This document shows, piece by piece, positions 24,816 through 27,296 of a stretch of DNA of 37,131 nucleotides. The DNA lies in the NCBI GenBank assembly GCA_021155855.1, contig JAJNAZ010000025.1, positions 1 through 37,131 of the forward strand, in the 5' to 3' direction. The notes under the pieces were generated by a model. The model made no database searches. It was not told where the DNA came from and was given only the letters and a program-made list of their open reading frames with translations. Numbering within the stretch: position 1 is the first letter of the stretch; every line of letters begins with the position of its first letter. Position numbers and translations under genes: made by a program. The DNA comes from Solirubrobacterales bacterium (GTDB lineage: Bacteria; Actinomycetota; Thermoleophilia; Solirubrobacterales; 70-9).

Positions 24816-26576
24816 TCAACCGTTCGCCCCGGCCGAGGGGTCGGCCCGCGCCCGGTCGGGAATCAACGGGCAGGGCTCCTCGGCATCGGGGGGACGGGCG
24901 GCGCGCTGCAGCGCCTCCGGCACCACCGCGCCGTCTTCGAGGCTCACCGTCAGGGCGCCGGCGCCCGCCGGCGCCCTGGCCGGGCCGTCGGCGGGCAGCT
25001 CCTCGACGCAGATCCGGTTGCCGCGCAGCTCCCAGGCAAGGTAGTCGCGGCCGTGCTGTTCGTCGAGCAGCTCCCCCGGGGCGAAGACCACGGTCGACCG
25101 AGGCCCGAGCTGGGACCGAAGCTCGGCCAGCGCCGGCGAGTAACCGCTCGGCCCGACCGGCCCGTTGGCGAGGGCAAGCACGCTCGAGCCGCCCGCGGCG
25201 ACCAGGAACGCGGCGGCCACCAGCGCCGGCGCGGCGGCACCTAGCGCCCTGATCGTTACCAGGGCGACGAGCGGGCTCGCGAGCACGAGCGCCTTCGCCT
25301 CCTGATACGGCGTTCCGGCGACCAGCGAGTAGAGCCACAGCAGCGCCGCCGCCACCAGCGCCGCGGGGACCGCGCCCTCGCCGCGCCGCCACCACCAGGC
25401 AAGCCCGAAGCCGAGCGCCGCGAGGCCGAAGGCTGCCCCGAGGTAAAAGGCGACCGCGGGCACGGCGCCGTCGCCGGGCTCGACCCGGAAGTCGCCCGAG
25501 GGCCAAATCCCCAGGGCCTCGAGTGGCGAGAGGCGGTCGAAGAGGTTGCCGAGGCCCTCACCGTCGGGGTCGAAGGTCTCGAAGTCGGCGAAGTCGGCGA
25601 TCCGGCCCGCCTCGGGCGCGATCGCGACCACCAGCACCAGCAGCGTGATCAGCGCCGTTGGCGCCGCCCGGCGCGCCAGTCGCAGCGCTTCGGCGAACGG
25701 GCGCCGAGGCGCCGCCCGTCCGAGCTCGAACGCCGCCCAGACGGCGAGCGCGCCGATGAGCCAGGCGAGCCCGGGGAAGCTGTAGACGTAGACACTGCCG
25801 ATCGCGAGCACCGCCAGCGGCATCGCCTCGAGCGCTCCCGGAGCTCGGGACTCGCCCGGCGCTCGGCCCCGGGCGAGGTGACGCAGCGCGATCGCGAAGG
25901 CGAGCACGAACAGCGCCTGCATGGTCTCCTTGAACGCACCCTGGACCAGGTAGGCGGCGACCAGGTAAGTGAGGCCGATGCAGAGCGCCCCGGCGGTGCG
26001 CCGCCAGGCCCCGCGCATGTCGAACAGCGCCAGCGGCGCCAGGCAGGCGGCGACCGCGACGGCCAGCGTCAGGCCGTTGAACGCCTCGACCGCGCTCGGC
26101 CCGAGGGCGCTGACGGCGACGACGATCGAGTGCGGGCCGAGCGGGTAGCCGTCGGCGATCAGCCGCTCGCTGCCGCCGGAGGCGAGCCGGTCGGCCGCGA
26201 ACAGGTGCTGGGACATGTCGGGGTTGAGCCCCGTGCCGAGGATCCCGAAGCGGGCCTCGACGATGAACGGCAGCGAGGCGAGCAGCAGCGCCGCGAGCCC
26301 GACCCACGGCGCGTCGCCCACGGTCGCGGACCGCCACGAGACCCGGCCGCGAAGCAGGAGCGTCGCGGCGGCCGCGGCGGCCGCGATCGCGACCAGCGCC
26401 GCGGTTCCCTCCCCCGGCAGGCGGACCGTCCACCAGGCAAGCGGGCAGAGGGCGGCGAGCCCGACCGCCGGCGCCAGCCACGACCACTCGCGCCGCCCGC
26501 AAGCGGCGAGGATCGCCTGCCCGGCGAGCGACGAGGCGCCGAAAACGACGACGAAGGACGCGTAGGTCCCGAGCAT
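24816..26576 (-). CDS. Large polytopic membrane protein, possible GT-C-type glycosyltransferase
   Basis: 586 residues, with about 12 or more hydrophobic segments over residues 1-480 and a soluble C-terminal domain (about 480-586: LRSQLGPRSTVVFAPGELLDEQHGRDYLAWELRG). The first extracytoplasmic loop carries LNPDMSQHLFAADRLASGG, an acidic D..xH-like element reminiscent of GT-C transferases and related envelope-sugar proteins. No specific family is certain. Function would be at the membrane with a lipid-linked sugar donor, if the guess is right. The start ATG (26574-26576) is 110 bases downstream of a 19-residue peptide gene on the same strand; the 3' end converges with the CHRD remnant. Confidence 0.6.
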   Translation of the reverse strand: MLGTYASFVVVFGASSLAGQAILAACGRREWSWLAPAVGLAALCPLAWWTVRLPGEGTAALVAIAAAAAAATLLLRGRVSWRSATVGDAPWVGLAALLLASLPFIVEARFGILGTGLNPDMSQHLFAADRLASGGSERLIADGYPLGPHSIVVAVSALGPSAVEAFNGLTLAVAVAACLAPLALFDMRGAWRRTAGALCIGLTYLVAAYLVQGAFKETMQALFVLAFAIALRHLARGRAPGESRAPGALEAMPLAVLAIGSVYVYSFPGLAWLIGALAVWAAFELGRAAPRRPFAEALRLARRAAPTALITLLVLVVAIAPEAGRIADFADFETFDPDGEGLGNLFDRLSPLEALGIWPSGDFRVEPGDGAVPAVAFYLGAAFGLAALGFGLAWWWRRGEGAVPAALVAAALLWLYSLVAGTPYQEAKALVLASPLVALVTIRALGAAAPALVAAAFLVAAGGSSVLALANGPVGPSGYSPALAELRSQLGPRSTVVFAPGELLDEQHGRDYLAWELRGNRICVEELPADGPARAPAGAGALTVSLEDGAVVPEALQRAARPPDAEEPCPLIPDRARADPSAGANG

Positions 26577-26685
26577 CGGCGGCGAGCATATTGGCGGCGG
26601 CCGCGGCTGCTCATACAGTTGGCGCCCTCACCGTCGTCCCGCTGAGGCAACGATCGAGGCGCTCCCCCCGCCGGCCCCAACCCGG

Positions 26686-26745
26686 CTACGCGATCAGAAT
26701 GATCAGCAGAATGATGATCAGCAGCGTCCCGATGCCGATGTACAT
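26686..26745 (-). CDS. 19-residue hydrophobic membrane peptide
   Basis: ATG (26743-26745) to TAG (26686-26688) encodes MYIGIGTLLIIILLIILIA, a single transmembrane helix with almost no flanks. A perfect Shine-Dalgarno, AAAGGAGG, lies 5 bases upstream, and a strong sigma-B-type promoter is placed about 35-40 bases before that. Such a combination is unlikely by chance for a 60-base frame. Small hydrophobic stress peptides of this style occur in Actinobacteria, but I cannot name the family. A membrane-modulating or type I toxin-like role is possible; no antitoxin RNA is evident. Confidence 0.65.
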   Translation of the reverse strand: MYIGIGTLLIIILLIILIA

Positions 26746-26787
26746 GTCGTCCTCCTTTCGAGGCCGTCAATGACCTGCCCGAACGAG

Positions 26788-26812
26788 ATACCCGCCGCGT
26801 GCGGCGCGAAAC
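26788..26812 (-). promoter_or_regulatory. Sigma-B/F-type general-stress promoter
   Basis: On the minus strand GTTT (26809-26812), 15 bases, then GGGTAT (26788-26793) is an exact match to the GTTT-N15-GGGTAT core recognised by actinobacterial stress sigma factors of the SigB/SigF group. It sits between the GNAT stop codon and the 19-residue peptide gene, with a predicted transcript start near 26780. Confidence 0.6.
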
Positions 26813-26834
26813 GGGCCCAGCGACGGGAACGGCC

Positions 26835-27296
26835 TCAGAGATCGCGCTCGTAGACGAGCATCTGCGGACCGTCGGGCTCGCCCTCACGGTTGCTGAACCC
26901 GCAGCTCTCATAGAGCCCGATCGCCGCGGTGTCGTCGACGCTCGTCCCGAGATCGATGCGAACCGCGCCCGCCTCGCGAGCGGCGTCCATCGTCGCCTCG
27001 AGCATGGCGCGACCGATGCCCTGACCGCGCCGCTCGGGGGCGACGTAGAGCTCCTCGAGATAGGCATCGAGCCCCTCGGCCCAGAGCGCCGGCCGGAGCC
27101 TCAGCACGGCGATCCCGTCGGGTCGCTCGCCACCGAGCAGCACCGTGATCTCGCCCTCCGCCATCAGCCGCCGGGCCCGTTCGCTGAGCGCCTCGACGCC
27201 CGGCGTCGGCTCGTCGAACTCGGTGTTGAAGTCGTGCAGCAGCCGTGCAACCTCCGGGGCATCGGCTGCGCCGGCGCGGCGGACGCGGATCTCCAT
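26835..27296 (-). CDS. GNAT family N-acetyltransferase
   Basis: 153 residues spanning a whole GNAT fold. The acetyl-CoA loop is PERRGQGIGRAML (about residues 88-100), followed by GAVRIDLGTSVDDTAAIGLYESCGF, typical of the last strands. It transfers an acetyl group to an amine, but the substrate is not predictable. The start ATG is at 27294-27296. It is divergent from the small membrane protein gene 88 bases away and ends just before the stress promoter of the 19-residue peptide. Confidence 0.9.
   Translation of the reverse strand: MEIRVRRAGAADAPEVARLLHDFNTEFDEPTPGVEALSERARRLMAEGEITVLLGGERPDGIAVLRLRPALWAEGLDAYLEELYVAPERRGQGIGRAMLEATMDAAREAGAVRIDLGTSVDDTAAIGLYESCGFSNREGEPDGPQMLVYERDL

Follow-up and report, generated by a model that had tools for sequence, protein, structure and literature searches.

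A gene of 60 bases lies on the minus strand at positions 26686..26745 of the window, the whole stretch of 37,131 nucleotides of DNA analysed here. It comprises 19 codons and a TAG stop and encodes MYIGIGTLLIIILLIILIA, a 19-amino-acid, all-hydrophobic peptide; its own sequence, its homologues and a codon-position test identify it as a gene. Annotation skips such genes, yet they recur in several phyla as well as in phages, and in Actinomycetota their stress promoter can be recognised. In fact, comparison with homologues shows that the reading frame is selected and that, in Actinomycetota, the stress-type promoter is conserved. We infer, in addition, that the micropeptide is induced by stress and inserted in the membrane. 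The gene probably stands alone and encodes a micropeptide with a single membrane helix, which would belong to the general stress response, be controlled by SigB/F/G-type sigma factors and act via its fixed N-terminus. A first-pass annotation of this DNA had proposed both a real 19-residue micropeptide gene and a hydrophobic helix in its product, and the homologues support the two proposals.

The frame opens with an ATG at 26745 on the minus strand and closes with a TAG at 26688-26686. Five nucleotides ahead of the ATG, the Shine-Dalgarno sequence AAAGGAGG (26751..26758, minus strand) is present as first annotated. The combination AAAGGAGG-N5-ATG occurs a single time in the 37-kb window and in none of 100 dinucleotide-preserving shuffles, and an AGGAG-like sequence is also found in many homologues that have a leader. 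A peptide search covering 41 genomes returned 19-residue homologues with the same start and length from two other genomes, one of which belongs to another family of the order. We also ran a DNA pattern in which codon 2 was left free on 232 genomes of the order: all 25 distinct short-ORF matches carry Tyr at this codon, while the readable non-Tyr matches sit inside long ORFs and the others have no short frame shown. Reversed-pattern controls matched 0 genomes in the order, Actinomycetota, Streptomyces-group and Oxalicibacterium samples. A scan of the genome_contigs collection returned at least 119 stretches, nearly all of them short peptides. Among the matches listed, a few fall by chance in long ORFs (Paenibacillus and others), and Ile occupies position 3 in 102 of 103 short peptides, with any NTN codon allowed.

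Because the search patterns fix some second positions, the informative codons are those outside the patterns. Over codons 11-24 of 16 Streptomyces-group 24-mers, 1680 comparisons at each position yield 48 differences at position 2, 535 at position 3 and 503 at position 1, where Ile, Leu and Val exchange; 66% of sites differ over the 45 nt past the stop in the same copies. Similarly, for 12 Oxalobacteraceae-sample homologues that are 19 residues long, the differences number 35 at position 2 and 387 at position 3, out of 594 comparisons each. Such variation is what a selected hydrophobic helix would give. The first-pass annotation had itself asked for conservation to be checked in this way, and across the order the frame and promoter are kept and third positions are far more variable than second positions. 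In six copies from one genus (including Solirubrobacter), GGGTA and most of the frame are retained, as is a CCCCACC/GGTGGGG inverted repeat past the stop.

Upstream of the window copy and on the same strand, a -35 element GTTT (26809..26812) lies 15 nt upstream of a SigB/F/G-type -10 element GGGTAT (26788..26793), which is conserved as GGGTA in homologues. This arrangement, GTTT-N15-GGGTAT at 26812-26788, is present where the first-pass annotation had placed it, with one match in the 37-kb window and 0 in 100 dinucleotide-preserving shuffles. GGGTA is found at most 60 nt from the ATG in 23 of 25 distinct homologues of the order (2.4 expected, with a maximum of 7 in 200 shuffles). When these are aligned on GGGTA, G appears at -20 in 21/23 and T at -17 in 19/23, giving GNNT-N16-GGGTA for the order; the window copy has GTTT and a spacing one base shorter. 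In one genus of the Streptomyces group, 7 of 16 copies carry GTTT-N14-GGGTA, and the other nine have no visible GGGTA promoter within 200 nt. Among the matches listed for the remaining collection, GTTT-N13-16-GGGTA precedes 9 of 103 copies (expected 0.11). Two sigma factors of the source genome score above the SigBFG cut-off (TIGR02980). Conservation in the order and in part of the Streptomyces group, together with these two factors, bears out the earlier assignment of a SigB/SigF-type promoter. In the portion of PMC8346170 considered here, S. coelicolor has nine SigB homologues, whose promoters likewise combine a GTTT or GNNT -35 with a GGGTA -10 at matching spacing; these are promoters of other genes, and no MYIG-family micropeptide was found in that portion.

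The distance between promoter and start differs between copies. GGGTA lies 15-16 nt ahead of the ATG in 11 homologues of the order, and their mRNA should therefore be leaderless, whereas the window copy has a leader of ~35-40 nt. Neither a sigma-70-type promoter nor an intrinsic terminator was found in 26400-27000. There is no support for a terminator behind the window copy, although a strong hairpin is present after the copy at locus L010.

The window peptide belongs to what we call a new family, MYIG, within a known kind, the stress-linked small membrane proteins, and its breadth is unusual. We collected at least 156 distinct peptides, none longer than 30 residues and most of 19-25 amino acids, that read M-Y-I-G-x-G-[T/A] followed by a hydrophobic stretch. 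Among the matches listed, the 156 peptides include 67 of 19 and 43 of 24 amino acids; none contains an acidic residue, and 100 carry between one and three basic residues, almost always at the C-terminus, many ending in Arg. A few of the collected peptides, for example L265, may be chance members. The family occurs in Actinomycetota, Betaproteobacteria, Chitinophagaceae, several phyla represented by MAGs only and 15 viral contigs. Isolate records come from Actinomycetota, Betaproteobacteria and Bacteroidota; Acidobacteria, Chloroflexi, Spirochaetes, Saccharibacteria and Verrucomicrobia are represented by metagenome bins or single records only. In a Dehalococcoidia MAG (L144, 7446-7621), two copies stand in tandem, MYIGLGTLLLIIVIVLLLVWLL and MGIGLGTLLLIVIVVLLLVWLL.

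Searches of Pfam and NCBIfam (for example TatA and GG_III-CTERM) gave best scores below the curated cut-off for all representatives tried; relatives stood in for the window peptide, whose 19 residues fall below the 20-residue minimum. The strings MYIGIGT, MYIGLGT and MYIGVGT appear in no paper of the searched library, and among its papers on stress, small proteins and leaderless genes none is, by title or abstract, evidently about the MYIG family. Clusters of MYIG peptides may nevertheless be found among catalogued unannotated small ORFs. Small single-helix membrane proteins induced by stress exist, for example in E. coli. MYIG peptides are like them in having one hydrophobic helix, fewer than ~30 residues and apparent stress control, but no sequence relation was found, and the MYIG N-terminus is nearly fixed and spans phyla and phages.

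The distribution of the gene is patchy. Pattern matches were found in 12 of 396 sampled Actinomycetota genomes, 16 of 35 genomes of one Streptomyces-group genus, 14 of 145 in a sample around Oxalicibacterium, 5 of 149 around a Chitinophagaceae genome (at least one of these five lying outside the MYIG family) and 1 of 148 around a Mycobacterium MAG; divergent members may escape the strict pattern. No copy was detected in one genome of the same genus, which is ~87% complete.

Outside Actinomycetota, other elements precede the gene. Of 28 copies, mostly betaproteobacterial, 19 have an ACAGA box 56-95 nt upstream (expected 1.2). Ahead of the ATG it takes the form CACAGAC or GNACAGA, for example at L067, L076, L127 and L168, and in several genera a CCCTC/GAGGG inverted repeat lies nearer the ATG than the box. 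In all five Chitinophagaceae-type copies, TGGCAC/T stands at -57 to -70 (expected 0.2); it is similar to a sigma-54 promoter's -24 part, with no clear -12 part. The sequence GTGGCACGCTTTT or a close variant, with the same likeness to a -24 part, was seen ~56-70 nt ahead of the ATG at L072, L112, L115, L130, L158, L263 and L266. We tentatively entertain a broader picture, in which an undescribed family whose N-terminal signature of seven residues is nearly fixed, and which several bacterial phyla share with their phages, could be expressed from stress-type promoters that differ by phylum (SigB/F-type in Actinomycetota, TGGCAC in Chitinophagaceae, ACAGA in Betaproteobacteria) because it serves one widespread membrane target.

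How might so small a peptide act? An alternative SigB/F/G-type sigma factor would transcribe the gene, and the micropeptide would presumably be made under osmotic, desiccation or stationary stress. It would then insert in the cytoplasmic membrane, most plausibly with the N-terminus outside and the C-terminus inside because its relatives carry a C-terminal Arg and lack acidic residues altogether. We envision that small-residue contacts let the near-invariant M-Y-I-G-x-G-[T/A] end pack against itself or against a membrane partner, with Y2, G4, G6 and T7 making specific contact, and that this packing could stabilise or modulate the partner during stress. Since the motif persists in different phyla and in phages, the partner should be a widespread one, and its gene would not be a neighbour of the micropeptide gene. 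A generic membrane filler is disfavoured because a fixed N-terminus would be needless for one. Carried on an otherwise generic hydrophobic helix, a fixed MYIGxG[T/A] end points to a specific contact in the membrane. The gene becomes a candidate member of actinobacterial stress regulons in cultivable groups (Solirubrobacter and Streptomyces relatives), and stress membranes may be connected with phage genes in a way that can be tested.

Type I toxins such as Ibs and TisB, of 18-29 residues, are also very small and almost purely hydrophobic. A MYIG peptide could by analogy be a membrane-damaging toxin kept in check by an antisense RNA, or a self-poisoning peptide triggered by stress. Size and hydrophobicity speak for such a toxin, as do some phage copies that adjoin lysis genes, but we consider it unlikely. 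In the 11 homologues of the order with GGGTA 15-16 nt ahead of the ATG, an antisense RNA would have no leader to mask; this applies to the family, whereas the window copy itself has a leader. Unlike Ibs and TisB, the family combines many apparently leaderless homologues with a fixed MYIGxG[T/A] start, unneeded by generic pore peptides, and with no acidic residue in any of the 156 peptides among the matches listed. Finally, a sigma-70 scan, which covers that promoter type only, detected no antisense promoter in the window.

The viral copies raise a different idea, namely that the peptide belongs to a phage lysis module, as a holin, antiholin or lysis regulator, and was domesticated by bacteria under stress control. 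In fact, all 15 IMG/VR contigs that match the strict pattern encode short peptides of the MYIG form, 19-26 amino acids long (three of them identical in sequence). In one viral contig (L195) the peptide lies 12 nt behind an endolysin gene and is followed by a small hydrophobic protein; in another (L190) a short membrane protein and a holin come after it. The holins of L190 (phrog_9233 and phrog_881) are adjacent to or near the peptide but are separate genes of ~130 residues, and a lysis role of the peptide there is putative. Endolysin or holin adjacency is absent from several other viral contigs and was not observed among the bacterial copies. Against the idea, the neighbours of other viral copies are terminase, polymerase-like or nucleotide-metabolism genes, and four Streptomyces phages whose holins are related have no such peptide nearby. 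The motif is missing from the stretches examined of these four phages and of one Arthrobacter phage. Moreover, bacterial copies outnumber viral ones here and have conserved bacterial promoters. We regard this lysis-module reading as improbable. When 24-residue homologues were compared by tblastn with named phages and plasmids, no match appeared, which is uninformative because the low-complexity filter was on.

Two other kinds of phage product came to light in viral contigs. L205, L210 and L215 encode a related-looking peptide, MEIGVGTFLLLLLVIVVIVVLVRR, with Glu replacing Tyr. L209, L214, L217 and L207 encode proteins of 57-59 residues that start MxIGIGT or MKIGLGP and continue IDWSWWW; these are probably another family with a similar start.

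Turning to the bacterial neighbourhood, the gene upstream of the window copy encodes a GNAT acetyltransferase. Downstream, a hydrophobic ORF without a Pfam match starts at 26576 on the same strand, 109 nt past the stop codon. The shared strand and short distance could suggest that the peptide acts in cis on this membrane protein or partners it, and the first-pass annotation had offered such a role. This link was rejected, and we regard it as highly improbable: the downstream genes of homologues are unrelated and often on the opposite strand, and no neighbour conserved across the MYIG family was found. Lastly, although 19 codons are few and the same-genus genome yielded no copy, a chance ORF with coincidental motif matches can be dismissed with near certainty, given the independent recurrence of start, motif, length and promoter, the codon-position bias and the blank reversed-pattern controls.

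Several local associations are to be recorded, the first of which speaks for the preferred reading, a stand-alone stress-controlled membrane micropeptide. CsbD-like general-stress genes (PF05532) lie at most 1 kb away in a minority of loci, 11 of 150, and farther in 4; given the bases covered, this proximity has p = 0.0015 against more distant positions, for loci that are not independent. The likeness to CsbD-like proteins consists in this neighbourhood and in their association with general stress, but CsbD is a charged protein with no sequence relation to the MYIG peptide. Genes of the HATPase_c_2 type (anti-sigma-like) adjoin some copies, and a rhodanese-like gene lies directly upstream in 10 loci from two genera of the order (L010, L026-L034).
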